NCBI GenBank assembly: GCA_036504035.1
Contig: DASXVV010000002.1
Coordinates: forward strand, 62,001 to 126,000
Reading direction: 5' to 3'
Length of the DNA stretch: 64,000 nt
Source of the DNA: Candidatus Deferrimicrobiaceae bacterium
GTDB lineage: Bacteria; Desulfobacterota; Deferrimicrobia; Deferrimicrobiales; Deferrimicrobiaceae
Of the stretch, positions 1-14,057 are shown piece by piece (positions within the stretch are counted from its first letter, which is position 1; the number at the start of each line of letters is the position of its first letter). The notes under the pieces were generated by a model. It was given only the letters and a program-made list of their open reading frames with translations, was not told the DNA's origin and searched no databases. A program made the translations under genes and the position numbers.

Positions 1-3000
1 GAGCTGATCCAAGGTGGTCCCGTCGCCGAGCGTGCCGACCCCGTTGTATCCCCATCCCCACAGGGAGCCGTCCTGCTGGATGGCGAACGAGAAGTCGTAC
101 CCTCCGGATACCGGCGTCCGGAGCGGGCAGGACAACGTCGTTGACGATTCGTTGTCGAGCGCGCTGCCGGCGCTGCGCACGCTGACCTCAACGGTGAAGT
201 TCCCCGGGACCAGCCCCGCGCTGTCCCACGTGTAAGCGTTGTCCGTCCCGTAGCTTCGGGACGCCACTTCCACGCCGGATCCGTTCCGGATGCGGAAGCG
301 ATACTCGAGCGGCGCAATCCCTCCCGTGCCCGACGCCGCAAAGTCGATCCTCGCGCCCGCCATGGTCGGGCCGGCCGGATTCGCGGAGACGGAGAGCGTC
401 ACGGGCGGCGGAGGCGCGATGGTCAGCGAGAGCGCCCGCTGGTGGGTCGCGGAACGAGCGTCGGTCACCTTGACGGTGATCGCGAAACCGCCCGCCTGGA
501 GCGGCACGCCGGAAAGGATGCCGGACACGGGGTCGAGCGAAATGCCGGCCGGGAGGCTGCCGGAGGCAAGCGACCAGGCGTACGGCGCCCCCCCCCCGGT
601 CGCGGCCAGCGTCGCTGTATACGACTGTCCGGCCGCGCCGTCGGGAAGCGATGTCGTGGATACGACGACGTGGGAGCTGTAGGACAACGTGAAATATTGC
701 GTCTGCGCCCCGCTCCGGGTCGAGGAGCCGGCCACCGTGATGGCGCCGTTCGCCATCGCCCGGATCGCCCGGCCGAATTCGTTCCGTCCCGACCCGGCGT
801 CGAACGCCGCGCTCCAGAGCCGGTTGCCGGCCGCGTCGTAGGCAGCCGTCACCATGTCCTGGGTGTCGTACTGCGCATACCCGGTGACGAAGACGTTTCC
901 GGCGGCGTCCGTCGCAATGGCGCCGGGGGGGCCGGGCGCCTGGAAGTTGTCGGCCCACAGCAGCGTGCCCGCGGAGTCATATTTTACGGTGGTAAAAGCA
1001 AATGCGGTACCCGGGTAGCCCGAAACGATGACGTTCCCGGCGGCGTCTGCCGCGATGACTGCGGGGATGACGGCCCCCCCCCCGTATTTGTAGTTCTGCA
1101 GCCAGCTCTGGCCGCCCGAAGGATCGTACTTGACCGTGGTCAAGCTGCGGCTGGCCGACTGGTAGGAGGCCGAATACAGGTTGCCGAAAGCGTCGAAGGA
1201 AACATAAGGGGAGTTGCCTCCGCCCCCGCCACCGTTGTACTTCAGGACCCCGAGGGAATTGCCTGAAGCGTCATACCGGACCGTCAGGACGTCGGTGCCC
1301 GACCCGTTCCAGTTCGTCCCGGTGGTGGCGACGACGCCTCCGGGACCGGCGGCCACGGAGCTCACCGAGCCGTTCAGCGCAACAGAATAGCGGGACCAAA
1401 TCAGGTTCCCGTCGGCATCGAACTTGGCGGTCGTGATTCCGTTGCCCGGCTGCTGGGACATCCCGCCGACGATGATGGCGCCGCTTTCGTCGAGAGTGAT
1501 CGCCGAGCTGGAAAAGTAGTTGCCGATACTGAGCGTTTTCTGCCAGAGCAGGTTGCCGGCCGGATCGTACTTGACCAGCCCGAAAGCCGTGTAGCTATCG
1601 TCGTATGCCCCGGTCACGTATAGGTTTCCCGCGGCGTCCAGCACCATGCCGCGCGGATTCTTGATGACAGAGTCCGGGGTTTCGATCACTGGTCCCTGGT
1701 CTGCGGTGACCGGAACGATCGAAAGGGAGAAAGCCGTCGTCGCGACGTTGCCCAACGAATCGGTGACCTGGACCGTGAAGCTGGAGGATCCGGTCGCCTC
1801 GGGGAGGCCCGATACGACGCCGTTGGCGAAGGTCAGCCCGGCCGGGAGCGTTCCGGACGCCAGCGTCCAGCCGTAGGGCGGCAACCCTCCCGACGGGGAA
1901 ATCGTCGTGTTGTACGACCCGCCGGGCATGCCGGCGGGAAGAACGGGGGGGGAGGAGATCCGGAGGATGTCGTAGACCGTGACCGAACCCGGAAGCGGCG
2001 CCGTGAACCCGTTCGCATCGGTCGCCTGGAGGGTGAACATGTACTGGCCGGAAGCGGCCGCCGCGCCGTTGACGTATCCAGTGGCGCCGTTGGAATTCAA
2101 GATGATCCCCGGGGGAAGCGCGCCGGTGGAGAGCGACCAGGCGTAGGGGGGCGTCCCGCCGCTCGCGAGCGCCTCGGCCGCGAAGGGCGAGTTGACCATC
2201 GTCCAGGTGGGCAATGGCAGCGTCTGCGCGATCGTGAGCCGCTCGGTGACGTTCAACGTGTAGCTGCGGCTCCCCGTCAGGGAACCGGAATCGCGGATTC
2301 CCACCGTGAAGGAGGAGGTGCCGGCCGTGGCCGGCGTTCCCGAAATCTCTCCCGTGGCCGGGTTGAGGGAAAGGCCTGCGGGAAGGACGCCGTCCGTGAT
2401 GGACCATGCGAAGGGGCCCGACCCGCCCCGATTCACCAGGGGAATGCGGTACGGAACGCCCGCCATCGCCGGCGGGACGGTGTAAGGCAGGACGTCCAGC
2501 GGGTTATAGACGGAGAGCGAAATTGCCGGCCGGTATGCCATCCAGCCGGTGTTGTCGGTCACCATGGGGGTGAAAGAGTAAACGCCCGTAGCGGACGGAA
2601 CTCCCGTGATCGCCCCCGTGGAGGCGTTCAAGGCGAGGCCCGGGGGGAGGGCGCCGTCGATGACGGACCATGTCTGCGGGAGCGTCCCGCCAGTGGCCGT
2701 CAACTGCTGCCGGTAGGGAAGCGTCGCGAATCCGTCGACAGGAACGACGTTGTCGACGGAAACGTGGAGCAGGAACCCGGTCGACAGCAGGTCGTATCCG
2801 TTGACGGTCTCGCCGGTCGCGTAGATCCGGTTTCCGAGCGTGGCGATCGGGTGCACGCTTCCCACCGCGCCGTCGCCGAATTTTCCCTGCCAGATCCGGT
2901 TGCCGTCGGCATCGTACTCGGTCAGGGGATACAGGCCGGACGTGTAGTTCGGAGCGGGACCGATCCTGTCGCCGGAAATGATCACTCCTCCGCCGGGTGC

Positions 3001-5688
3001 GGCCGCGACCGTGGCGTAGGTATCCGAGTTCGAAGTCTGCGTCCAGGCCGCATTTCCATTGGCATCGAACTTGACGGTCTCAAGCCACCCGTTGCCGGCC
3101 GACGTCTGGTAGCCGGTGACGTAGAGATTTCCGGCGGCATCCACCGTCAGGCCGGAGGGACCCGTGCCCGCACCGGCGGTGCTTCCCGATCCAAGAAGCG
3201 CCTGCCATACGAGATTGCCGGCGCCGTCGTACTTGAAAACCAGGTATCGGCCTTCCAGACTGGGGCTGACGAGATAGACGTGGCCGCTCGCGGTAGCGAC
3301 GACACGGACGCCGGTCTCGACTCCCGTGCCCGTGTAAGTGCGTCGCCACAACTCGCGGCCGGTGGCGTCGAACTTGAACAGCAGCAGATCCTGTCCCGCC
3401 GCCGTCTGTCCGTGGCCGGTGGCGTAAACGTTTCCCGAGCCGTCCACCGCGACGGAACGGAAAACATCGTTGCCGCCCTGATAATCGACCGGAATGGCGT
3501 TCCAGACGAGCGCACCGTTGTCGGGGGAATATTTCGAGAGCCGGAGGTCGCTGTTTCCCGCGACGTTGGCGACGGAGCCTGCCACGTAGACGGATCCTGC
3601 CCCGTCGACGGCCACCGCGTTGGCCGGATCGGCCATGGAAACCGCCCAGCCGGGAGCTCCGGAAGGGCCGGTCTTGATCAGGCGGAAGTCCTGGGCGTAG
3701 ACATACGGGTTGCCATTATCGTCTTTGGTGATGTGGTTGGCGAAACCCGCCGCATAGCTGTTCCCGGACGCATCGACGGCGATGTCGGTGGCGCCGATGG
3801 CGACATCGGGCGCCACACCCGGCGTCAACTCGGAATAGGAACGAGCCCATTCCCGGACGTAGGACCGGTCCGCCACCAACAGGCTGACGTTTTTCGACGT
3901 CTTCGAGCTTTCGCCGTCGACGACCTGAACCGTGACGGTGTACGTTCCGGCTACGGTCGGGAACCCGGTGACGAGCCCCGTCTGGCCGTCAAGCGAAAGG
4001 CCGGGGGGAAGCGCACCGCCGACGATCGACCAGGCGTAGGGACCGGGGCCGTTTACGGCTGCAAGCTGGTCCGCATAGGACTGGTGCAGGGATGCGGGCG
4101 AAAGCCCCGACGTGGCGATAGCCAATGCGGGATAGCGGGCCACCCCGGAGCCGGCCGGCGAAGAGAAATAGAATCTTCCGGGCGGGGCCGTCATGTTGTT
4201 GTCCCAAGTGGCGGCGAAGACCCCGCCGCCGACGTCGGTCAGTTCGAACGTGGAACCCTCGGGCGTCGTGACAGTGACCGGCCCGGCGGGTTCGCCGCAG
4301 TTCACGCTGATGACGGACAATGTGTAGGAAATGATATAACTACCGCTGCCCCATCTGAAGGGAGCGCTCTTGACTGCGAAGTAGCGCCGGTCGTTGCAGG
4401 TAAGCGAGCCGAGGGCGTTGATGCGCAGCCCGTCCCTGAGTTTGTCGGTCAGCGCCGGAACGGAGTCGGCGCCCGCCAGGATGAGGTTGCGAATCCGGTA
4501 GCCGTCCCGGGATGAGTCCTGGGCCTTCAGCAAGGCGGCCAGCCCGGCGACGTGGGGGGCTGCCATCGAAGTACCCGAATCGTAACCGTAGCTCCCGCCA
4601 GGCAGAGTACTGAGGATATCTTCGCCTGGAGCAGCCACCTGGGTGTTGTAGGCACCCGTTTTCCCGCCGGACCAATAGTCGGAATAGACGAAGATCGTGT
4701 CGGTGGCATTGGTCGCAGGTACCCCGATGATGTTCGGGAGGTCGAATGCGGCCGGGTATTGCGCCCAGCGGCTGGAATAATAGTTGTTGCCGGCGCCCGC
4801 GATGAAGAGGGTGTCCCCAAGCTGCGTGATCGCGAACAGGAGGGCAGAATCGTTGCTGTCCCCGCCCCAGCTCGCGTTGACCGCGACGATGTTCACCCCG
4901 GCAGCCTTCATGTTCGTGACGTAATTGACGCAATTGATGGCCCTGGCGGACGTCCCGTTCCCCGCGCTGTCGAGAAACTTGACAGGCAGGATCTTGACGT
5001 TCCACGCGACGCCGGCGACGCCTTTGCCGTTGTTCCCGGCCGCCCCGATGATCCCGGCCACGTGGGTGCCGTGGCCGTAGTCGTCCATCGGATTTCCGCT
5101 GTCGTACATGTTGACGGAGTTGTATCCGACGACACTGCCGTCGGGATTCCGCAGGATGTTGGCCGCCAGGTCCGGATGGTTGTAGTCGACGCCCGAATCG
5201 ATGACCGCGATTACAACGTTGTCGGAGCCCGTCGAGTAGTCCCATGCCTCGGGAGCGTGAATCGTGGACATTCCCCACTGCTGGTAGATGTAGGTGTCGT
5301 TGGGAATGGCGTTGGCCTTGTATATGTAGTTCGGCTGGGCGGATTCGACGGAGGGATCCGCCTCGTACGCTCGGATCGCGTCGTCGACCGTCTGTCCCTT
5401 TCGGCTTCTCACATGGTGAAGGCGTTGGGACGGAAATTCCTGGAGAAGCGTGGCCCCTTGCCGCGCGTGCAGTTTCCTGCGGTGATCGTCGGAGGCATCC
5501 GCCCTGAATTTCACCAACAGTTCCCCATCCACATATGCGGGAACCGGTTTCCCGGCGATGTTGTCTCCCGCCGGAGCGCCCTGGGCGTGGGCACGGCCCC
5601 CGGCTCCGATGCAGAAGAGCGCAGAAAGAAGGATGGCGATCAGCGTGATCGGAAATGCGGAGCGGCGGCTTGTTCCCACAGTTCTCAT
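1..5688 (-). CDS. Secreted subtilisin-family (S8) protease with Ig/beta-propeller repeats, C-terminus beyond window
   Basis: A secreted serine endopeptidase, cut off by the window edge. The frame is open from an ATG at 5688 (GGGGAAG upstream) to base 1: 1,896 residues with no stop. In order: Sec signal peptide (about residues 1-36), propeptide-like region (to ~135), S8 catalytic domain (~150-430) with Asp164 (IDSGVD), His206 (GHGTHVAG) and Ser374 (GTSMAAPH), one putative-Ig repeat (~515-595), SBBP-type beta-propeller repeats (~600-960), four Ig-type repeats (~970-1335, each with a PYxWSL...LPxGL signature), a second propeller block (~1335-1665), more Ig repeats, and the start of an RCC1-like repeat (LWGWGYNG, ~1880). 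The triad is complete, so activity is expected outside the cell or at the surface; the target is unknown. Two runs of ten G lie in the coding strand. No neighbour suggests a substrate. Confidence 0.9.
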   Translation of the reverse strand, partial: MRTVGTSRRSAFPITLIAILLSALFCIGAGGRAHAQGAPAGDNIAGKPVPAYVDGELLVKFRADASDDHRRKLHARQGATLLQEFPSQRLHHVRSRKGQTVDDAIRAYEADPSVESAQPNYIYKANAIPNDTYIYQQWGMSTIHAPEAWDYSTGSDNVVIAVIDSGVDYNHPDLAANILRNPDGSVVGYNSVNMYDSGNPMDDYGHGTHVAGIIGAAGNNGKGVAGVAWNVKILPVKFLDSAGNGTSARAINCVNYVTNMKAAGVNIVAVNASWGGDSNDSALLFAITQLGDTLFIAGAGNNYYSSRWAQYPAAFDLPNIIGVPATNATDTIFVYSDYWSGGKTGAYNTQVAAPGEDILSTLPGGSYGYDSGTSMAAPHVAGLAALLKAQDSSRDGYRIRNLILAGADSVPALTDKLRDGLRINALGSLTCNDRRYFAVKSAPFRWGSGSYIISYTLSVISVNCGEPAGPVTVTTPEGSTFELTDVGGGVFAATWDNNMTAPPGRFYFSSPAGSGVARYPALAIATSGLSPASLHQSYADQLAAVNGPGPYAWSIVGGALPPGLSLDGQTGLVTGFPTVAGTYTVTVQVVDGESSKTSKNVSLLVADRSYVREWARSYSELTPGVAPDVAIGATDIAVDASGNSYAAGFANHITKDDNGNPYVYAQDFRLIKTGPSGAPGWAVSMADPANAVAVDGAGSVYVAGSVANVAGNSDLRLSKYSPDNGALVWNAIPVDYQGGNDVFRSVAVDGSGNVYATGHGQTAAGQDLLLFKFDATGRELWRRTYTGTGVETGVRVVATASGHVYLVSPSLEGRYLVFKYDGAGNLVWQALLGSGSTAGAGTGPSGLTVDAAGNLYVTGYQTSAGNGWLETVKFDANGNAAWTQTSNSDTYATVAAAPGGGVIISGDRIGPAPNYTSGLYPLTEYDADGNRIWQGKFGDGAVGSVHPIATLGNRIYATGETVNGYDLLSTGFLLHVSVDNVVPVDGFATLPYRQQLTATGGTLPQTWSVIDGALPPGLALNASTGAITGVPSATGVYSFTPMVTDNTGWMAYRPAISLSVYNPLDVLPYTVPPAMAGVPYRIPLVNRGGSGPFAWSITDGVLPAGLSLNPATGEISGTPATAGTSSFTVGIRDSGSLTGSRSYTLNVTERLTIAQTLPLPTWTMVNSPFAAEALASGGTPPYAWSLSTGALPPGIILNSNGATGYVNGAAAASGQYMFTLQATDANGFTAPLPGSVTVYDILRISSPPVLPAGMPGGSYNTTISPSGGLPPYGWTLASGTLPAGLTFANGVVSGLPEATGSSSFTVQVTDSLGNVATTAFSLSIVPVTADQGPVIETPDSVIKNPRGMVLDAAGNLYVTGAYDDSYTAFGLVKYDPAGNLLWQKTLSIGNYFSSSAITLDESGAIIVGGMSQQPGNGITTAKFDADGNLIWSRYSVALNGSVSSVAAGPGGVVATTGTNWNGSGTDVLTVRYDASGNSLGVLKYNGGGGGGNSPYVSFDAFGNLYSASYQSASRSLTTVKYDPSGGQSWLQNYKYGGGAVIPAVIAADAAGNVIVSGYPGTAFAFTTVKYDSAGTLLWADNFQAPGPPGAIATDAAGNVFVTGYAQYDTQDMVTAAYDAAGNRLWSAAFDAGSGRNEFGRAIRAMANGAITVAGSSTRSGAQTQYFTLSYSSHVVVSTTSLPDGAAGQSYTATLAATGGGAPYAWSLASGSLPAGISLDPVSGILSGVPLQAGGFAITVKVTDARSATHQRALSLTIAPPPPVTLSVSANPAGPTMAGARIDFAASGTGGIAPLEYRFRIRNGSGVEVASRSYGTDNAYTWDSAGLVPGNFTVEVSVRSAGSALDNESSTTLSCPLRTPVSGGYDFSFAIQQDGSLWGWGYNGVGTLGDGTTLDQL
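588..597 (-). repeat. G10 homopolymer inside the protease gene
   Basis: Ten consecutive G on the coding (minus) strand, within an Ig-type repeat of the S8 protease (the Thr-Gly-Gly-Gly-Ala-Pro-Tyr segment). The present length keeps the frame open. Such tracts are prone to slippage, which would shift the frame and remove the C-terminal repeats. Confidence 0.8.
1074..1083 (-). repeat. Second G10 homopolymer inside the protease gene
   Basis: A second run of ten G on the coding strand of the S8 protease, in the second beta-propeller block (Tyr-Gly-Gly-Gly-Ala-Val). As with the tract at 588-597, a one-base length change would truncate the protein. It is also a likely place for sequencing error. 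Confidence 0.8.
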
Positions 5689-5875
5689 GACTTCCCCTGG
5701 AAAGGTTGATGAGTGTTCTACGGCTGTGAGGCATACGGCGATGCGGCTGGGAAACGGCGAACGGCATACGGCGGGAGCCGACGCAGGGTGGAACAGGTGG
5801 ATCGGTTATTGAAAGAAGACTAAGGACTACCAGAAGCGTTCGGAGGGGTCAACTGTAAATGTTATTCAGCGGAAA

Positions 5876-7461
5876 TCAGCGGGACGGAGCGATCCTGGCC
5901 TGCGCCGCCCGGCTCGAAGGGTTGATCTCGAGCGCCCTCCGGAACTGCTGCCGGGCGAGGTCCGCCTTCCCTGCGACTCGTAGATCAGCCCCAGCCCGAC
6001 ATGCCCCCGCTCGGCATCGGGATCGATGTCGACCAGCCGGCTGACGACGGCCTCCGCCTCCCCGGGCCTCCCCGCGTCCATGAGGGCTCCCCCGAGAAGC
6101 CACAGCGTCTCCGGGTCGTACGGCTTGTAGCGGTCCGATTCCCGCAGGTCCTCGATCGCCCCGTCCAGGTTTCCCCCCTGGATCCGCCCGGCGCCCCGCT
6201 CGCGATACGCAAAGCCGAGGCCCTGGTTGAGCCGGGCGGGAGACCCAGTCGCATCGGCCGAATGGCGGAACAGGGTGAGGCTGTCCCGCCAGACGCCGGC
6301 CTGCCCCCACGTGGTTGCGGACAGGAACACGACCCAGGCGCCGGCCACGTCCGAAAACACATGCCGATGCTTCGGGAGCCGGCGCATCAGATCCGCCGCG
6401 CCCCACGCCGCCAGCACGAACAGCCCGACGTGCGGGACATAGGTGTACCGGTCGGCGATCGACTGTACCCCGAACTGCACGATCCCGATGACGGGCACCA
6501 GCGTCCCGAGGAACCAGAGCTAGCCGAACGCGAGGTACGGGAAGCGGTGCCGCGCGCGCAGGACCGCGAAGGTCAGGACCGACAGGAGTCCGAGCGACGC
6601 GGCGAATTCCCACGCGGGGATGGACGCCGGATAAGGGTAAAGGATGGACATGGTGCCCGGGTAGAGCGTCTTCCCGAGATAGCGGGCATAGGCGACGACG
6701 GCGTTGGCGAGCCGCATGCCGGCGGGAAACACCAGCGCGGCGTAGGTTCTGGGGTGCGCCTGGGCGAGGTATTTCATGACGCAGGAACCCGCCGAGAGCG
6801 CGAAGGACGGGATCTTCTCGAGGAAGACGCGAGGCGTCAAGGGCCGTCCGAGCGGCCAGGCGTCCGCCAGCAGCAGGAGGAAGGGAAGCGTGACCAACAT
6901 CGGCTTGACAAGGAGCCCCAGGGCGAGGAACCCCAGCGCGAGCAGGTACCTCCCCGCGCCGGGCCGCTCGGTGTATCGGGCGTACGCGCCCAGCGTCGCG
7001 AGAAGGAAGAAGGTGCTGAGGACGTCCTTCCGCTCGGAAACCCAGGCGACCGACTCGACGTGCAGCGGGTGGAGGGCGAAGAGCACCGAAGCGGCCGCGC
7101 TTTCCCGGTCCCGCCCCGTCATCTTGCGGAAAACGAGGAAGACCAGTACCACGTTCGCGATGTGGAACAACAGGTTGACCGCATGGTGCATCGACGGGTC
7201 GAGCCCGAAAAGGCGGACATCGAGCATGTGGGACAGCCAGGTCAGCGGATGCCAGTTGGAAGCGTCGAACCCGGTGAACGCCCAGCGGAGGGAATCGGCG
7301 GTGATCCCTCCCAGGACGTGGGCGTTCCGGGTCAGGTACTCGGGATCGTCGAACAGGATGAACCCGTTCCCGAGAACGGGAGAATAAGCCGCTGCGGTCA
7401 CGGCGGCCAGGGCCAGCGCGATCAGCCAGAGAGCGCGTTCTTTGGCGAAAACGGGGTTCAT
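5876..7461 (-). pseudogene. Disrupted TMTC/DUF1736-type membrane glycosyltransferase with C-terminal TPRs
   Basis: Reads as one ancestral protein of about 527 codons: ATG at 7461 (GGAGGT upstream), many membrane segments, early-loop motif DDPEYL, and the family motifs NWHPLTWLSHMLD and LFALHPLHVESVAWVSERKD, then TPR repeats ending EINPSSRAAQARI. Two lesions break it. Codon 314 is TAG (6520-6522) where the surrounding text (AFG*LWFLGTLVP) implies Trp, a TGG to TAG change. One base is missing near 5966-5972, so the last TPR continues in the next frame to the stop at 5876. Relatives are integral membrane mannosyltransferase-like proteins with a TPR tail. It lies 13 bases after pgeF, in the same direction. 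Sequencing error at one site is possible; two independent errors are less likely. Confidence 0.75.
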
Positions 7462-7474
7462 GCGACCTCCGCGG

Positions 7475-8197
7475 TCAGGGAATGAACAGGAACGAGAGCT
7501 GGCGCAGCGACACGGAGCGCTCGCGGCGGTACGAGTTGAAGCGGGCGTCGCAGATCGTGCAGACGCCGGGCGCATCGCAACGCCCCTCGGCGATGCCCGC
7601 CGCCCGGAGTTGCGCCACCGCCGCGGGCAGAAGGTCGGCCATCCACTTGCCCGGCGCTCTGCCGGGACGCAACGCCCCGGCGACGCCGGGAAGCGGCGCC
7701 AGCGCGTCGGCCACATCGGCGCCGACCTCGTAGCAGCACCCGCGGGCGCACGGGCCGACGGCGGCGACCAGGCCGTCGACGACCCCCGCGCCGAACCGCC
7801 CGGCGAGCGCCGCGACCGTCGCCGGGATGACGCCCTCGGCCAGCCCGCGCCAGCCGGCGTGCACAGCGGCGGCCAGCGGGAGTTCCCGGTGCGCGATCAG
7901 CACGGGGACGCAATCGGCGGTCCGCACCCCGACGCCGCGACCGGGTCGACCGGTCCAGAGCCCGTCGCCATCCCGGGCGCCTCCGTCGGGGTTGCCCCCG
8001 TCGGCGTCCTCCATCTCGAGGACGAGGCCGGAGTGGATCTGCACCAGCGTGCCCATCGCATCCGGCGGGACCCCGAACGCCTCGCGCAGCCGGGTGCGCC
8101 CGTCGCGCCCCGGCACGGGATCGACGCCGCAGAAGGCATGATAAGTCCCGGTCTCCCCGAGGAGCAGCGGCGACTGGATGAAATTCGGCAATCTCAT
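7475..8197 (-). CDS. pgeF: Purine nucleoside phosphorylase-like multicopper-fold protein, YfiH/PgeF (DUF152) family
   Basis: 240 residues, the usual family length. The family was once called polyphenol oxidase or laccase domain; E. coli YfiH acts in peptidoglycan editing and other members cleave purine nucleosides. Visible signatures are VRTADCVPVLI, AVHAGWRGLAEGV (His metal ligand), GPCARGCCYEVG (Cys ligand) and the C-terminal CTICDARFNSYRRE. Cytosolic, with no signal peptide. The ATG at 8197 overlaps the stop of gluQ by four bases (ATGA), so the two are probably translationally coupled. The gene is followed 13 bases later by the disrupted membrane glycosyltransferase. Confidence 0.88.
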   Translation of the reverse strand: MRLPNFIQSPLLLGETGTYHAFCGVDPVPGRDGRTRLREAFGVPPDAMGTLVQIHSGLVLEMEDADGGNPDGGARDGDGLWTGRPGRGVGVRTADCVPVLIAHRELPLAAAVHAGWRGLAEGVIPATVAALAGRFGAGVVDGLVAAVGPCARGCCYEVGADVADALAPLPGVAGALRPGRAPGKWMADLLPAAVAQLRAAGIAEGRCDAPGVCTICDARFNSYRRERSVSLRQLSFLFIP

Positions 8198-9150
8198 GAA
8201 GGGAACGGACCTCCGGTGATTGGGATGCGGGCGGGGTCGAACGCGGCCGACGCCGCGGCCAGCAGCTCCGGGGCGGGAAGTGCCGCCGCGTCCTGGGGCA
8301 CCCGCTGCCCCAGGAAGACGAGTGCGGATGCGAGCAGCCGGCCGCCGTCGCGCGCGAGGTCTCGGCCCGCCGCCAGGGAGACCGCGCTGTCCCGCTTGGA
8401 CAGCTTGCCCCCGCCGGCCGTGCCGACCAGAGGCAAGTGAGCGTATTCGGGAACGGGAAACCCGAGCAATCGCTGAAGGCGGATCTGGCGCGCCGTCGAG
8501 GTGAGGAGGTCGGCCCCACGGACCACCTGGGTCACCCCCTGCCAGGCGTCGTCGACCACGACCGCGAGCTGGTATGCGAACAACCCGTCGGCCCGCCTCA
8601 CCACGAAATCGCCGCACGTCGATGCGAGGTCGGACGACTGTCCCCCGAGAACGCGGTCGCGGAAAGAAACCGTCTCCTCTCCGGCGAGGACCCGCCAGGC
8701 GCGCGCCGCCTTCCCCGGCGGCAACCCGTAGCGGCACGTGCCGGGATAGGCAACCTCATCCTCCCCGGAATGCGGCGCCGTCGCCGCCCGGGAAACCTCC
8801 GCGCGCGAGCAGCCGCAGGGGTACGCGGCACCCGCCGCCTTCAACCGGTCCAGCGCGGCGCTGTAGGCTTCCGTCCGGCTGCTCTGGAAAACGACGCCGC
8901 CGTCCCACGCGAAGCCGAGCGTCTCGAGCGTCCGGAGGATGTCGTCGGCGCAACCGGGCACGACCCGCGGGGCGTCCAGGTCCTCCATCCGCACGAGCCA
9001 GCGGCCGCCGGCGCTTCGCGCGAACAGCCAGCTCCCGAGCGCGGCCACGAGGGATCCGAAGTGGAGCGGCCCGGTCGGCGAGGGGGCGAACCGTCCGACG
9101 GGCGGAGAGATGCGCCCCTCCGCCGTGACCGACCCTGCCTGTCCGCCCAT
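8194..9150 (-). CDS. gluQ: Glutamyl-Q tRNA(Asp) synthetase
   Basis: 318 residues. GluQ-RS activates glutamate and attaches it to queuosine at the wobble position of tRNA(Asp); it resembles the catalytic domain of GluRS without the anticodon-binding domain. Seen: the HIGH-like PSPTGPLHFGSL near residue 22, the zinc-site pattern PCGCS ... YPGTCRYG (Cys-x-Cys, Tyr, Cys), and KMSKS-like KLSKRDSA near residue 245. The short length and the zinc pattern separate it from GltX. Start chosen at the ATG at 9150 because GGAGGA lies six bases upstream; earlier in-frame codons lack a ribosome site. The stop overlaps the start of pgeF. Confidence 0.9.
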   Translation of the reverse strand: MGGQAGSVTAEGRISPPVGRFAPSPTGPLHFGSLVAALGSWLFARSAGGRWLVRMEDLDAPRVVPGCADDILRTLETLGFAWDGGVVFQSSRTEAYSAALDRLKAAGAAYPCGCSRAEVSRAATAPHSGEDEVAYPGTCRYGLPPGKAARAWRVLAGEETVSFRDRVLGGQSSDLASTCGDFVVRRADGLFAYQLAVVVDDAWQGVTQVVRGADLLTSTARQIRLQRLLGFPVPEYAHLPLVGTAGGGKLSKRDSAVSLAAGRDLARDGGRLLASALVFLGQRVPQDAAALPAPELLAAASAAFDPARIPITGGPFPS

Positions 9151-9419
9151 GTTTCCTCCGGAAAACCTGCCGTTCGGGAGATTATTCTCCATTTTCACCC
9201 ATCGCATGGAACAAATGAGAGCCCGGCTTCGCAATTCCTCTACTCGACGCCGGCCGACTGCCCGATGCCTGCGCTGCAACTTTCCGTAAACCAATGGCTT
9301 TTAGCTTTGACGATCCGCGGGTACGAGTCCTGCTTGCTCGCTTTAACGAAGCGCGTGATCCCATCGCCGCAGGCACGATCCCGGAAAGTCCGGGCAAATC
9401 AAAACTTATGGAGACCGAC
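9151..9419. promoter_or_regulatory. Divergent intergenic region between gluQ and the lipoprotein operon
   Basis: About 270 bases with no convincing gene. On the plus strand, just before the lipoprotein gene, lie two compact hairpins: CGCTT/AAGCG at 9339-9353 and a perfect CCCGGA-AAG-TCCGGG at 9380-9394, about 25 bases before the start codon. I could not match this leader to a known riboswitch; the conserved c-di-GMP (GEMM) core is not present. Promoters for both directions must lie here, but no strong -35/-10 pair is evident. Confidence 0.35.
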
Positions 9420-11033
9420 ATGAGCCCTTTCCCCCCCGGAAAATACGCCGTCGTCCTGGCCGTTGCCTGCCTCTTCGCCCTTCTTGCCGCTTGTGGCGGC
9501 GGAGGTTCCGACAGCGCTTCCACGACCACCACGATCACCGGATCGGTCTTCGCGGCCCCGATGAACGGCGCGTCGGTCAGCGTCCGGAACGCGGCAGGGA
9601 ATATCGTAGCAGGCCCCGTGGCGACGGCGCCCGACGGCAGCTACAGCATCCCGATCCCGAACGGCGCCCTGGCCGGCGCCCTCCGGTTCGAAAGCAGCGG
9701 CGGCACGTTTACGGACGAGGCGACCGGCACGGCGTCGACCCCAGGCGGGCCGCTTTCGGCGTATGCCGAGGCCGGCACGCTCCGGACCGGTTCCGCGATC
9801 CACCTGACGCCGATCTCCACCATCGTCCACGACCTGCGATTGGCCAATCGAACCTCGGCGCAGGCCCGCGACAACTGCGTCGCAGCGTTCGGCTTCACCG
9901 ACAACGCGAGCGTGGGACCCCGAAACGACAACGCGGTCATGGGAATGGGCGTGGACAACGTCGCCCGGCGACTGGCGGGGCTTCGCGCCGTCGCGTTCAG
10001 CCAGATGGCCAGGGATCTCGGCGTCTCCCCCGACAACCAGTTCAAGCTGATCGCCGCCCTGGGCTCGGACCTGCGCGACGGCGTCCTCGACGGGCGCTTC
10101 GGCGTCGACAACGTCGACATCTATCCCGGGAAGCCGTTGCCGGAAGACATCCAGAACCGGTTCGCCAACGCGCTGGCGACGTGCTTCCTCGATCCCGCCG
10201 TCAACAAGACCGGTCTCACGGCAACCCAGATCGGCGCGCCTCCCATGGCGACGGTTGCCCTGACACCCACCTGGCGGGTCGAGTATCTCCCCGGATCGGC
10301 CGCTCCCGCGCAGGGCCGCACCGACTTCGGGATCAAGGTCAACCGGCGCAGCGACGGGGTCGCGATGCCGGGACGGACGCTCCGGATCGTTCCCTGGATG
10401 TACATGGCCACAAAGGACCACTCGTCGCCGATCGACAACGCGATCGGCGACAACACCGACGGCACCTATACCTGCACCGTCTACTACGTCATGGGCTCGG
10501 CCGGCATGGGGTTCTGGGAGCTGCGGGTCGTCGTCGACGGCGAAACCGCCACCTTCCATCCCTTCGTAAACAACCCGGGCGCCGACACGGCGCGCGCGAC
10601 GCTGAAGGGAACGGACAACGCGGCCAGCGTGCCCGTCGCGCAGCGCAACTACTTCCTCTTCAAGGACGGCCCGATGACCGGCGCCACGGGCGCCCATACT
10701 TTCAAGGTCTACCTGGCGGCGAACGACAACCAGTCGACCTTCCCGCAGCTCCAGGTCGGGACCGTGCTCCATACGCCGGCCGGCGCGCCCTTCACGGTCG
10801 ACGCCATCCTGGTCGACGCCTCCACGGACAACACGTTCAACTCGAGCGTCGTCACCGGAACGCCCGTCGCAGGAACGGCCCATTGGTCGTTCCCCGGCCT
10901 TTCGGGGCTCATCAGCGGCCAGACGGGAAACGTCTACGTCCGGCTGACGGTGAACGGCGAGCGGAAGACGACCAGCGGCGCCCCCGACAACGGGACCAAC
11001 GGATTCGCCACGTTCACGATCCTGGCGCCTTGA
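9420..11033 (+). CDS. Exported lipoprotein, first gene of a lipoprotein/barrel/redoxin/NosL operon
   Basis: 537 residues, function unknown. Signal peptide with lipobox LLAAC puts the lipid anchor on Cys25, followed by a Gly/Ser/Thr linker. Residues ~38-105 (TGSVFAAPMNGASVSV ... PDGSYSIPIP) look like a carboxypeptidase-regulatory or Ig-like domain, common in surface proteins. The remainder is rich in beta-type sequence with no recognised motif and no CxxCH haem site. Start ATG 9420 is chosen for GGAG eight bases upstream; the in-frame ATG at 9408 has none. The next gene begins eight bases after the stop, so the four genes at 9.4-13.1 kb probably form one operon. It may be the surface partner of the outer-membrane barrel encoded next. 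Confidence 0.7.
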   Translation: MSPFPPGKYAVVLAVACLFALLAACGGGGSDSASTTTTITGSVFAAPMNGASVSVRNAAGNIVAGPVATAPDGSYSIPIPNGALAGALRFESSGGTFTDEATGTASTPGGPLSAYAEAGTLRTGSAIHLTPISTIVHDLRLANRTSAQARDNCVAAFGFTDNASVGPRNDNAVMGMGVDNVARRLAGLRAVAFSQMARDLGVSPDNQFKLIAALGSDLRDGVLDGRFGVDNVDIYPGKPLPEDIQNRFANALATCFLDPAVNKTGLTATQIGAPPMATVALTPTWRVEYLPGSAAPAQGRTDFGIKVNRRSDGVAMPGRTLRIVPWMYMATKDHSSPIDNAIGDNTDGTYTCTVYYVMGSAGMGFWELRVVVDGETATFHPFVNNPGADTARATLKGTDNAASVPVAQRNYFLFKDGPMTGATGAHTFKVYLAANDNQSTFPQLQVGTVLHTPAGAPFTVDAILVDASTDNTFNSSVVTGTPVAGTAHWSFPGLSGLISGQTGNVYVRLTVNGERKTTSGAPDNGTNGFATFTILAP

Positions 11034-11041
11034 CGAGCGGC

Positions 11042-12031
11042 ATGGTTCGCTCGATCCGGCCCCTTCCGCTCCTGTGCCTGGCGGCCCTCCTCTGGGGGGC
11101 CGCCGGCCTGCATCCCACCCCGGCCAACGCCGGCTCCTGCTGCGGCGGCGGCAGCGGCGCGGCGCTGATCCTGCCGAAAGGCAACAAGGCCCTGCTCGAC
11201 CTGGGGCTCGAGATGGAGAAATACGACGGCTTCTGGAACCAGGCCGGCCGGCACATCCAGGATCCGCCCGGTTCCGACCTGCGGCAGTACCGGCTGACGC
11301 TGGGCGCCGCGCAACGGCTCTCCTCGCGCTGGCAGGCGAGCGTGTCCCTCCCTTATGTCTGGAACCGGAACCGCTACTCCGGCAGCGTCACCAGCTCCGA
11401 CGGCCTGGGCGACTCGACGCTGTCGGTCTGGTACGAGGCGCTCGACGACGTCTCGACCTGGAAACTTTCATCCGCGAAGGACCTCATCCCGTCGGTCGTG
11501 ATCGGGCCGTCCCTCCTGATCCCCACCGGCATCTCCCCGTACGACGACAAGGAGAGCAGCTTCGACGTCACCGGGCGCGGATTCTACCGGCTCGACGGCA
11601 ATCTGCAGGTCGACAAGACGCTTCGCCCTTTCACGGCCTCGCTCGCGCTGGGCTACGGGCGCTATTTCGAGCGCCCCGTCGACAAGGAGTACGGCCGCTT
11701 CGTCGAGCCCTACCACAAGCGTCTCGGCAACCGCTTCTCGGTTTCCGGCTCGCTCGGCTACATCGCCGTCCTGGGGACGGGGGGCGACACGCTGACGGGC
11801 ACGGCCACCCTGGCCTACGTGGAGGAAGACAACGGAAAGCGGAACGGCGAGACCGACCCGACGACCGCCTTCAAGAAAACCTCGGTCGGCGGCGCGCTCC
11901 TCTACGCGAGCACCGATCACGACTGGAGCGTCAAGGCGTCCTGGAACCACGCGATCCAGGCCGAAGGGTGGGGAGAAAACTTCCCGACCACCGACATCTA
12001 CAGCATGGGAGTCCGCTATGGGTTCCGTTAA
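11042..12031 (+). CDS. Putative outer-membrane beta-barrel (transporter-like)
   Basis: 329 residues. Sec signal peptide (about 1-31, ending PANA-G), then a mature N-terminus beginning GSCCGGGSG, and alternating amphipathic strands (RQYRLTLGAAQRLSS, WQASVSLPYVWN, TASLALGYGRYFE, FSVSGSLGYIAV). It ends in YSMGVRYGFR, so the terminal residue is Arg rather than the usual Phe, though a Phe is penultimate. This pattern fits the outer-membrane transporter/porin-like families of about 12 strands. The paired cysteines directly after the signal could bind metal or be substrates of the redoxin encoded downstream. Its end overlaps the next start by 14 bases. Specific substrate unknown. Confidence 0.7.
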   Translation: MVRSIRPLPLLCLAALLWGAAGLHPTPANAGSCCGGGSGAALILPKGNKALLDLGLEMEKYDGFWNQAGRHIQDPPGSDLRQYRLTLGAAQRLSSRWQASVSLPYVWNRNRYSGSVTSSDGLGDSTLSVWYEALDDVSTWKLSSAKDLIPSVVIGPSLLIPTGISPYDDKESSFDVTGRGFYRLDGNLQVDKTLRPFTASLALGYGRYFERPVDKEYGRFVEPYHKRLGNRFSVSGSLGYIAVLGTGGDTLTGTATLAYVEEDNGKRNGETDPTTAFKKTSVGGALLYASTDHDWSVKASWNHAIQAEGWGENFPTTDIYSMGVRYGFR

Positions 12032-12587
12032 GAAGGGGCGAATGCGCCGGGTCATGACCCTGCTCCCGATCCTCGCGCTGGCGGCCGGATGCAACGGCGT
12101 GGGGGAAGACCTGTCGCCCTCCGCCACCGACCGGCGCCCGCCCGTCGTATCCGGCACGACCGGTCCCGCAGTCGGGCAGAACGCCCCCGACTTCACGCTC
12201 CCGGGCACGCTCGGGGAAAGCGTCACCCTCTCCGCGAGCCTCGCGGGGCGAAGGGCGATCGTCCTCTACTTCACGATGTGGTGCCCGATCTGCGACGCCC
12301 ACATGAGCCACATGCGAAGCGCCGTCATTCCCGCCTATCCCGACGTGGCGTTCCTCGTGATCGACTACGTGTCGGGCAGCGTCGCCGACGCCCTCCGGTC
12401 CGAGACCGAAAACGGCTATCTCGGGTCGGGATTCACGGTGCTCGTCGATACCGGCAACCCGGTGCTTCACGCCTACGCCGCGACGATGGGCACGACCGTG
12501 GTCGTCGACAACACGGGCGTCATCCGGATGAACGAGGACTACGGGAACGGCACCCGGTTGCTCTCCGTGCTCGGGGGGCTGCCATGA
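12018..12587 (+). CDS. TlpA/AhpC-type thiol-disulfide redoxin, lipoprotein
   Basis: 189 residues. Signal peptide with lipobox LAAGC (Cys25) predicts a periplasmic lipoprotein. The thioredoxin fold starts with VGQNAPDFTLPG and carries the active-site motif Trp-Cys-Pro-Ile-Cys (Cys89, Cys92), then GTTVVVDNTGVI with a Thr beside the expected cis-Pro region. TlpA/ResA-like proteins reduce protein disulfides in the periplasm, often for haem or copper-site assembly. ATG 12018 has GGAG upstream; ATG 12042 is an alternative that also keeps the signal peptide. Between a barrel gene with paired cysteines and a NosL-like copper protein, a role in keeping metal-binding cysteines reduced is plausible but unproven. 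Confidence 0.8.
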   Translation: MGSVKKGRMRRVMTLLPILALAAGCNGVGEDLSPSATDRRPPVVSGTTGPAVGQNAPDFTLPGTLGESVTLSASLAGRRAIVLYFTMWCPICDAHMSHMRSAVIPAYPDVAFLVIDYVSGSVADALRSETENGYLGSGFTVLVDTGNPVLHAYAATMGTTVVVDNTGVIRMNEDYGNGTRLLSVLGGLP

Positions 12588-12616
12588 ACGGAACCAGGAT
12601 ACGGGAGGTCATCGCC

Positions 12617-13066
12617 ATGAACATACCGAGGGGACGCATCGGCATCGCCGTCGTTCTGCTCCTGATATCCGCAGCCGCCTTCGCTCAGGACGACATCTCC
12701 CGTCACCGGTTTTGCGCCGAATGCGGGATGGACCGGAAGGCCTACGGCTTCAGCCGGATGCTGATCGTCTACGAGGACGGCGCCGAAGTCGGCGCCTGCA
12801 GCCTGCATTGCGCCGCGGCCGCCCTCGACAAGGGGGCGGGCAGGACGGTGAAGTCGATCCTCGCGGCCGACCGCGACCGCACGGCACTGGTCGATGCGGA
12901 AAAGGCGACTTGGGTCATAGGGGGGAAGAAGCGGGGCGTGATGACCGCGGTGCCGAAGTGGGCCTTCGCCGCGCCCGAAGCGGCGGAGGCATTCGTCAAT
13001 GCCCACGGGGGAAAGATCGCCTCCTGGGCCGAGGCGCTGGAGGCGGCGCGGAAAGAACCGCGCTAG
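12617..13066 (+). CDS. NosL-like copper-binding periplasmic protein
   Basis: 149 residues from ATG 12617, preceded by GGGAGG at good spacing; an upstream in-frame ATG at 12584 overlaps the redoxin stop as ATGA and is possible. Signal peptide about 1-24 (ends AFA-Q; no lipobox, unlike typical NosL, which is a lipoprotein). The NosL signature is clear: FCAECGMDRKAYGF (Cys33, Cys36, Met38) and GACSLHCAAAAL (Cys61, Cys65). NosL binds Cu(I) and helps build the copper centres of nitrous oxide reductase. No nosZ or other nos gene is seen in this window, so it is probably a metal chaperone for some other target, possibly the products of the same operon. Confidence 0.75.
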   Translation: MNIPRGRIGIAVVLLLISAAAFAQDDISRHRFCAECGMDRKAYGFSRMLIVYEDGAEVGACSLHCAAAALDKGAGRTVKSILAADRDRTALVDAEKATWVIGGKKRGVMTAVPKWAFAAPEAAEAFVNAHGGKIASWAEALEAARKEPR

Positions 13067-13100: not shown

Positions 13101-14057
13101 TCATTTGCCGCCGGCGGCCAGCACCTCGTCCCGGAAGATGCCGAACTCGGGCGGATCGTCGACCGTGAACGACAGCTTTTCGCCGGTCACGGGATGCTCG
13201 AACGCCAGGTGGAACGCGTGGAGAAAATACCGGTCGAGGACGACCGTTTGCGACCCCGCTCCCTTGCCCAGGACTACTTTTCGCGATTTTCCGTAGACGT
13301 CGTCGCCCACGATCGGGCAGCCAAGGTGGGCGCAGTGGACGCGCACCTGGTGGGTGCGCCCCGTCTCGAGCTCGAACTCGACCCGGCTGAACGGGCCGAA
13401 CGTCTCGAGCAGCCGATAGCGCGTGATCGCCTCGCGGCCGCCCCGCTCCAGCACCGCCATCTTCTTGCGATTGACCGGATGGCGGCCGATGCGCGTGACG
13501 ACCGTGCCGCTCGCCTTCGCGGGGCTTCCCCAGACGATGCCGTGGTAACGGCGGACGAGGTCGTGGGTCGCGAAGCGCGCAGAGAGCCCCGCATGCGCCG
13601 CGTCGGTCTTCGCGACAACGAGGATGCCCGACGTGTCTCGGTCGAGCCGGTGGACGATGCCGGGACGCTCGACGCCGCCGATGCCCGAAAGCCCCTCGGC
13701 GTGCGCGAGCAGAACATGGACGAGCGTGCCCTCGGCGTGGCCGGGCGCGGGGTGGACGACCATCCCCGCCGGCTTCTCGACCACGAGCAGGTAGGCGTCC
13801 TGATACAGGATGCGCAGAGGCCGATCCTCGGGGATGAGCTCGAGCGGGCGTGGGGGGGGAATCGTGACAACGATCGCGTCGCCGGCCTTGAGCCGACCCG
13901 AGGGGCGGGCGTCGCCGGAGGCCAGCGTCACCTGCCCGTCCTCGATGAGCCGTTGCAGGCGGGAACGCGACAGGTCGGGAAGCGATGCGGCGAGAAACCG
14001 GTCGAGCCGCTCCCCCGCGTCTCCCGGGGGAACGGTCAGCCGGTGCGTGACGGGCAA
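13101..14057 (-). CDS. rluD: RluD-family 23S rRNA pseudouridine synthase
   Basis: 318 residues, normal for RluD. Isomerises uridine to pseudouridine in 23S rRNA (helix 69 in E. coli). N-terminal S4 RNA-binding domain (RLDRFLAASLPDLSRSRLQRLI, given in part), then the catalytic domain with HRLDRDTSG, whose Asp is the nucleophile, and the late motifs ETGRTHQVRVH and HAFHLAFEHP. Convergent with the NosL-like gene, 34 bases away. Same direction as the 88-residue unknown just upstream. A G8 run in the coding region (near 13852-13859 on the plus strand) keeps the frame. Confidence 0.92.
   Translation of the reverse strand: MPVTHRLTVPPGDAGERLDRFLAASLPDLSRSRLQRLIEDGQVTLASGDARPSGRLKAGDAIVVTIPPPRPLELIPEDRPLRILYQDAYLLVVEKPAGMVVHPAPGHAEGTLVHVLLAHAEGLSGIGGVERPGIVHRLDRDTSGILVVAKTDAAHAGLSARFATHDLVRRYHGIVWGSPAKASGTVVTRIGRHPVNRKKMAVLERGGREAITRYRLLETFGPFSRVEFELETGRTHQVRVHCAHLGCPIVGDDVYGKSRKVVLGKGAGSQTVVLDRYFLHAFHLAFEHPVTGEKLSFTVDDPPEFGIFRDEVLAAGGK

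Follow-up and report, generated by a model that had tools for sequence, protein, structure and literature searches.

A lipoprotein, barrel and redoxin core as a candidate copper-handling unit at the outer membrane

What might be the function of four adjacent genes that encode a lipoprotein, an outer-membrane beta-barrel, a CxxC redoxin and a NosL-like protein? The question is raised by a 64,000-nucleotide (nt) stretch of the Candidatus Deferrimicrobiaceae bacterium genome (assembly GCA_036504035.1, contig DASXVV010000002.1, positions 62,001 to 126,000, forward strand), here called the window. As the original prediction had supposed, the set appears to be undescribed: no description of it was found in the open-access full-text literature, subscription papers being outside the search. 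The first three genes are a conserved core across at least three phyla, and the features of the encoded proteins suggest a copper-handling unit at the outer membrane.

A three-gene core and its distribution

The genes form a compact operon at 9420-13066 of the window:

9420..11033, plus strand: lipoprotein (core gene 1), 537 amino acids, with lipobox LLAAC; from lipobox, model and alignment
11042..12031, plus strand: outer-membrane beta-barrel (core gene 2) with a COG4313/FapF-like fold, 329 amino acids, mature start GSCCGGG; from profile and model
12007..12011, plus strand: GGGAG, resembling a ribosome-binding site, within the last codons of the barrel gene and upstream of the redoxin start; from sequence
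12018..12031, plus strand: overlap of barrel and redoxin genes, 14 nt; from sequence
12018..12587, plus strand: thioredoxin-fold lipoprotein with CxxC, the redoxin (core gene 3), 189 amino acids, lipobox LAAGC (AAGC-N); AhpC-TSA 48.6 bits, cut-off 26
12617..13066 (alternative start 12584), plus strand: NosL-like protein, predicted soluble and periplasmic, accessory gene; PF05573 40.0 bits, cut-off 24

The barrel gene starts 8 bp past the end of the lipoprotein gene. Its overlap with the redoxin gene is exactly 14 nt at 24 of the 26 loci compared, the remaining two having an ATG 3 nt further upstream, and an equivalent of the GGGAG (GGGGGTG or GGGAGT) is present in most relatives. Reading frames and motifs are as first described, including the compact arrangement, the Cys-Cys of the mature barrel N-terminus, the redoxin WCPIC and the CxxCGM and CSxHC of the NosL-like protein. 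All four proteins have the export signals attributed to them, with one correction: the lipobox is on the first and third, making the redoxin a lipoprotein as well, and the NosL-like protein, which has none, is not one, in contrast to classical NosL. None of the four passes any NCBIfam model.

A second species of the genus has the same four genes, likewise ordered, and the first three are found together in several phyla, which puts the operon far beyond chance. Within the phylum, the barrel family is found in 5 of 395 genomes. Searches of these 395 with the redoxin and the full-length lipoprotein, scored without reference to the barrel but with query alignments from barrel-bearing loci, returned exactly the same five; the chance of this under random draw would be about 1 in 8e10, a figure that overstates independence, as two of the five are congeneric. 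Additional lipoprotein matches in genomes G145 and G205 cover the N-terminal domain only and were rejected.

A scan of an 84,980-species collection with an alignment of the five barrels found 26 loci in 25 genomes. (Loci have L-numbers and genomes G-numbers, G000 being the window's own genome.) Carriers include Geobacteraceae/Desulfuromonadaceae, other deltaproteobacterial lineages, Nitrospirota and Gammaproteobacteria, among them Geobacter sp. OR-1, Oleispira, Thalassolituus and Oleiphilaceae. By profile search of the flanks, lipoprotein, barrel and redoxin follow in that order on one strand wherever the contig permits, except at L041, where the lipoprotein gene is adjacent and divergent, and at L043 (same genome as L020), where the contig ends inside the barrel. 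The scan samples by barrel and would miss relatives that lack one, which the phylum searches cover for the window's own phylum. The proposed adjacency across genomes thus stands for the first three genes, in several phyla, and not for NosL as a constant member.

On one side of the operon is a minus-strand gene that diverges from it (open frame 8194-9294), and on the other a convergent gene at 13101-14057, whose product was named from its sequence as an RluD-type pseudouridine synthase.

Candidate metal ligands in the core proteins

The sites on which a metal-binding role would depend are as follows:

10392..10430, plus strand: Met/His motif P-W-M-Y-M-A-T-K-D-H-S-S-P of the putative YtkA-like domain of the lipoprotein; relatives have PMMHM...SHxTP
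11135..11149, plus strand: Ser-Cys-Cys-Gly-Gly just past the barrel signal peptide; a flexible tail before the first strand, unstructured in the model
12279..12305, plus strand: redoxin active-site stretch W-C-P-I-C-D-A-H-M; from sequence and alignment
12486..12491, plus strand: Met-Gly where TlpA, ResA and thioredoxin carry the cis-Pro loop; from alignments

The barrel matches PF13557 (28.3 bits, cut-off 22). Its structure model (predicted local distance difference test, pLDDT, 83.7) is matched by Foldseek to FapF (5o68; E 1.4e-16, template-modelling (TM) scores 0.66/0.79) and also to the COG4313 channel 4rl8. The SCCGG is invariant in 27 of 27 aligned barrels, and since the lumen has no conserved Met, His or Cys, this tail is the barrel's sole soft-metal candidate. 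A weak barrel match in G054 was rejected as an ordinary PF13557-like barrel in another gene context, and a plasmid search returned no plasmid-borne copy. At L018 a second copy (8037-8828), C-terminally divergent or truncated, lies ~2.5 kb downstream of the first and is followed by a lipoprotein with repeats.

For the lipoprotein, no Pfam family is over cut-off, and a PDB structure search gave no whole-length match to its model (pLDDT 88; best TM 0.15). In the model, a beta domain at the N-terminus is followed by a helical middle and then by an all-beta C-terminal part, which can be read as two immunoglobulin-like domains, the first YtkA-like; 11 of 24 family members match YtkA (PF13115) at E 0.05 (best E 2.8e-6). 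Across the 24 aligned rows P325, M327, M329, M358 and W366 are invariant, H334 and P337 nearly so, and the lipobox Cys is the only conserved cysteine. At L019 (about 80-85) the lipoprotein frame contains an in-frame TGA just 5' of MPMMHM; this is likely a sequencing error or a broken gene, as it is near the end of a contig of a metagenome assembly.

In E. coli, lipoproteins without Asp at position +2 go to the outer membrane. By this rule the relatives' redoxins and lipoproteins would be outer-membrane proteins, since +2 is never Asp among those whose lipobox was detected, the simple pattern used having missed or misplaced a few, including that of the window's lipoprotein. The latter, with a lipobox read by eye (LLAAC-G) and thus Gly at +2, is also predicted to be anchored in the outer membrane.

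In the redoxin, W88, C89 and C92 are invariant in 26 sequences, and His follows three residues past C92 in 25 of them. The residue at the cis-Pro position, in MAFFT and HMMER alignments, is Gly in 22, Ala in two, Ser in one and a gap in one, and Pro in none, with Met directly before it in all 26; in a joint alignment, Pro is present in all nine of the ordinary TlpA-type proteins that were taken from these loci. HMMER alignments to solved thioredoxins pair the same redoxin residue with the Pro of 2yp6, 5um7 and 4hqz. A cis-Pro has been suggested to keep CxxC from binding metal (PMC2757866, citing Su et al. 2007). Of the initial TlpA-type assignment, the AhpC-TSA fold and the CxxC stand; because the cis-Pro of TlpA and ResA is missing, the protein is probably not merely a reductant of that type. 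The window's redoxin has no match to SCO1-SenC (PF02630) and carries CxxC, vs. the CxxxC of Sco.

The fourth gene and the soft-metal context

Two ATGs are available to the NosL-like gene. With the one at 12584 there is a 4-nt overlap with the redoxin stop; the one at 12617 leaves a gap of 29 bp and is the better candidate, with a GGGAGGT ribosome-binding site ahead of it. Two cysteine motifs are present:

12713..12730, plus strand: CxxCGM motif (CAECGM, C44-M49 counted from 12584); from sequence
12797..12811, plus strand: CSLHC (CX3C) motif; from sequence

The CX3C motif is missing from the KCPVCGM-type NosL proteins at three carrier loci. A NosL gene is in the cluster in 15 of 26 genomes, the window's own counted, downstream in 14 and upstream in one (L042). 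A barrel tree groups all NosL-type rows but L019 in a single clade (support 97/96) that spans Nitrospirota and deltaproteobacterial lineages, so that transfer between phyla is likely. NosL is thus a lineage-specific fourth gene, mostly confined to one clade, and not part of the constant core. Elsewhere a small cytochrome c follows the redoxin (L019, L020, L021, L025, L039), and ordinary TlpA is found at L023, L024, L025, L031 and L034. At L019 the cytochrome is followed by a NosL-like domain (2711-3553) that continues into a fused C-terminal extension weakly resembling Spy.

As initially claimed, there is no nosZ here, and by PF18764 profile search this extends to the whole genome; the idea that the operon is part of a nos system is accordingly rejected. 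Nor is there nosZ in any of the 15 genomes with NosL in the cluster; the six carriers that have it, out of 26, all belong to the 11 whose cluster lacks NosL. The probability of this split is ~0.002 (462/230230) if the labels are independent, with lineage as a confounder; some assemblies are incomplete, making single absences weak. CuA-domain proteins are found in 16 of the 26, too few to support a single CuA oxidase as client.

A second NosL (264488) in the window's genome is in an operon-like run at about 260282-264871 of G000:C9 (4283-8872 of L003), in the order YtkA-like protein, outer-membrane-type protein, possible flavin mononucleotide-binding/RnfG-like protein, MacB/FtsX permease with GCPYEAATMMLQGG, ATP-binding cassette (ABC) ATPase, NosL. 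A similar permease-ATPase-NosL set immediately precedes the core in L038, and L027 and L041 have a second NosL-ABC operon in the core's vicinity; the G000:C9 operon is a plausible partner for the four-gene operon.

Other genes with soft-metal features are scattered among the loci. A gene for the copper-storage protein Csp1, predicted as exported by twin-arginine translocation (TIGR04401 123 bits, cut-off 100) is upstream of the core on the same strand in L018 (2196-2693), with a DsbD_TM-type gene further upstream, and a SCO1/SenC gene is near the core in L033. A Cys-rich exported protein (GECSGDC...CCC) is upstream of the core in the Geobacteraceae/Desulfuromonadaceae loci L026 (6199-6951), L029 (5590-6219), L030, L033 and L038; no match was found in Pfam (one scanned), NCBIfam (two scanned) or plasmids (one searched). 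Exported proteins with repeated CxCGxxCxC...GKCGCG near the core in L028 (4673-5050), L030 (5903-6271) and L017 (72-647) recall heavy-metal-binding domains, with no Pfam match for the one scanned. Immediately 5' of the lipoprotein in L017 (Deferrisomatales), a frame at 5327-6367, also without Pfam match, has two CxxCH motifs and a Met-rich stretch. A general association with copper storage was rejected, Csp1 being found in two of 26 carriers.

Readings of the operon and known systems

By a slight balance of probability, the operon encodes an outer-membrane relay for a soft metal. This would probably be Cu(I), given the SCCGG tail, the lipoprotein's P-x-M-x-M and His, and a CxxC redoxin with an invariant Met and no cis-Pro. 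Both lipoproteins and the barrel would be at the outer membrane, the lipoproteins on its periplasmic face; the Cys-Cys tail, Met/His domain and CxxC+Met site would bind Cu(I) and pass it among themselves. The redoxin would act in a Sco-like manner, as a metal-binding thioredoxin fold rather than a plain TlpA reductase, assisted by the YtkA-like lipoprotein as CtaK is thought to assist Sco in Bacillus. From there the metal may go to the soluble periplasmic NosL, and onward either to some cuproprotein or to a MacB-type ABC transporter linked with NosL, for instance that of G000:C9; where NosL is absent, cytochrome c or TlpA could supply the redox step. Inward movement (acquisition or delivery) is somewhat favored over outward. 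The neighbors count for copper: NosL in 15 of 26 genomes, the Csp1 of L018, the SCO1/SenC of L033, the Cys-rich exported proteins and the NosL-ABC operons. The predicted metal (probably copper) module at the outer membrane is thereby supported; its metal, direction and recipient are what we infer. The full assembly, namely an undescribed copper relay of Cys-Cys-tailed barrel, Sco-like redoxin, YtkA-type lipoprotein, a NosL variant serving a cuproprotein other than NosZ, and a redox partner swappable by lineage, is put forward more tentatively, at somewhat under even chances.

Several observations weigh against this. The window's own lipoprotein fails the YtkA model at E 0.05, and its PWMYM...H is a weaker motif than the relatives' PMMHM. 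The barrel lumen offers no conserved soft ligand, its other invariant residues being mostly charged, aromatic or Gly/Pro. No single cuproenzyme accounts for the distribution (CuA 16/26, nosZ 6/26), and Csp1 is absent from the window's genome and rare among the carriers. Right after NosL in L036 there is an FtrD-like (DUF2318) gene (9983-10459), the sole link to an iron system. Cu(I) binding by the operon proteins is itself a prediction from their sequences.

The Cys-rich exported neighbors, the one Csp1 and, at three loci, the NosL-linked MacB-type transporters next to the core or close by could also be read as outward detoxification of copper or another soft metal, with periplasmic Cu(I) sequestered at the outer membrane and released via the barrel, and NosL and the Cys-rich proteins as buffers. 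This is unlikely, if the strongest of the alternatives: CusA/CzcA, P-type ATPases and multicopper oxidases were not seen adjoining the core, the barrel does not belong to the TolC-type factors, and a make-up rich in chaperones and poor in pumps better matches delivery.

Iron acquisition, by a logic akin to Campylobacter fetMP-fetABCDEF, would explain the FtrD-like gene of L036 and the thioredoxin-fold lipoproteins and MacB-like genes nearby, and the fet parts list (PMC10783030) counts in its favor. It is nonetheless improbable: the FtrD-like gene is at one locus only, the conserved Cys, Met and His are soft ligands, and neither an FTR1-like permease nor fetP was noticed in the loci themselves, profile searches not having been extended to the whole genome. 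Equally improbable is a role in thiol redox or cytochrome c maturation, in which a ResA/CcmG-like redoxin would reduce the barrel Cys-Cys or apocytochromes and no metal would be handled. The AhpC-TSA/ResA similarity, the small cytochromes c and the DsbD_TM-type gene of L018 fit such a role, but thiol reductases keep the cis-Pro that the redoxin has lost, and the Met/His lipoprotein and NosL are left without explanation.

The best fold match of the barrel, FapF, exports an amyloid polypeptide (PMC5557850), and the barrel might by analogy export or surface-display the partner lipoprotein or another polypeptide while the redoxin tends its cysteines. This is very unlikely, as the lipoprotein has no conserved cysteine besides that of the lipobox, and neither fapA-E-like genes nor amyloid repeats were noticed among the recurring neighbors, on which no Fap profile was run. 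For uptake of hydrophobic compounds, as the COG4313/Phenol_MetA_deg label would have it, one can count the carriers Oleispira, Thalassolituus and Oleiphilaceae, which we take to be related to hydrocarbon degraders. Together with the PF13557 match, and with COG4313 channels implicated in hydrophobic molecule uptake (PMC4493636), this makes a barely credible case that leaves the Cys-Cys, Met/His lipoprotein, non-cis-Pro redoxin and NosL unexplained and finds no catabolic genes recurring at the loci.

If the operon does encode a soft-metal relay, it bears on several questions. How copper passes the outer membrane other than by TonB-dependent receptors is poorly understood, and no client has been assigned to the NosL proteins of genomes that lack nosZ. 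The core is a defined candidate for copper handling, present in a named strain (Geobacter sp. OR-1) and in marine Gammaproteobacteria, and its redoxins, a natural thioredoxin-fold family with CxxC and without cis-Pro, are a test of the idea that the cis-Pro excludes metals.

CopB and PcoB are outer-membrane copper-resistance barrels encoded with periplasmic copper proteins, a combination also predicted for the operon; the barrel here has no CopB family match, and a CopA/PcoA multicopper oxidase and CopC/D were not noticed at the loci. COG4313/FapF channels (PF13557; PDB 5o65-5o68, 4rl8) resemble it in predicted fold and length, with ~20% identity to FapF, but the barrel has the invariant SCCGG N-terminus and no fap operon was noticed. 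TlpA, ResA and CcmG share with the redoxin its fold, WCxxC and lipoprotein or membrane anchoring; they differ from it at the cis-Pro position (Gly, Ala or Ser in the redoxin), in its invariant preceding Met and in its His three residues past the second Cys.

A NosL family protein is what the operon has in common with NosL/NosDFY maturation of nitrous oxide reductase, for which NosDFY loci without NosZ are known (PMC13068155); its NosL has the extra CSxHC and no lipobox, and follows the barrel operon rather than nosDFY. The Campylobacter fetMP-fetABCDEF cluster encodes a periplasmic metal-binding protein, DUF2318 and YHS domains, MacB-like ABC genes and two thioredoxins (PMC10783030). Such a combination of metal-binding periplasmic protein, MacB-like genes and thioredoxins in one cluster is similar, but here the ligands are those of a soft metal, the barrel is the constant part, and an iron permease was not noticed, nor searched for genome-wide. 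In Bacillus, copper delivery to CuA is believed to involve CtaK (YtkA) together with Sco, a copper protein of thioredoxin-like type (PMC13344008). The operon proteins differ from this pair in being tied to an outer-membrane barrel, in the CxxC (Sco CxxxC) and missing SCO1-SenC match of the redoxin, and in that searches of 10 of the 26 carriers gave no CuA protein; the likeness is that in both a lipoprotein with a YtkA or putative YtkA-like domain is paired with a thioredoxin-fold protein.

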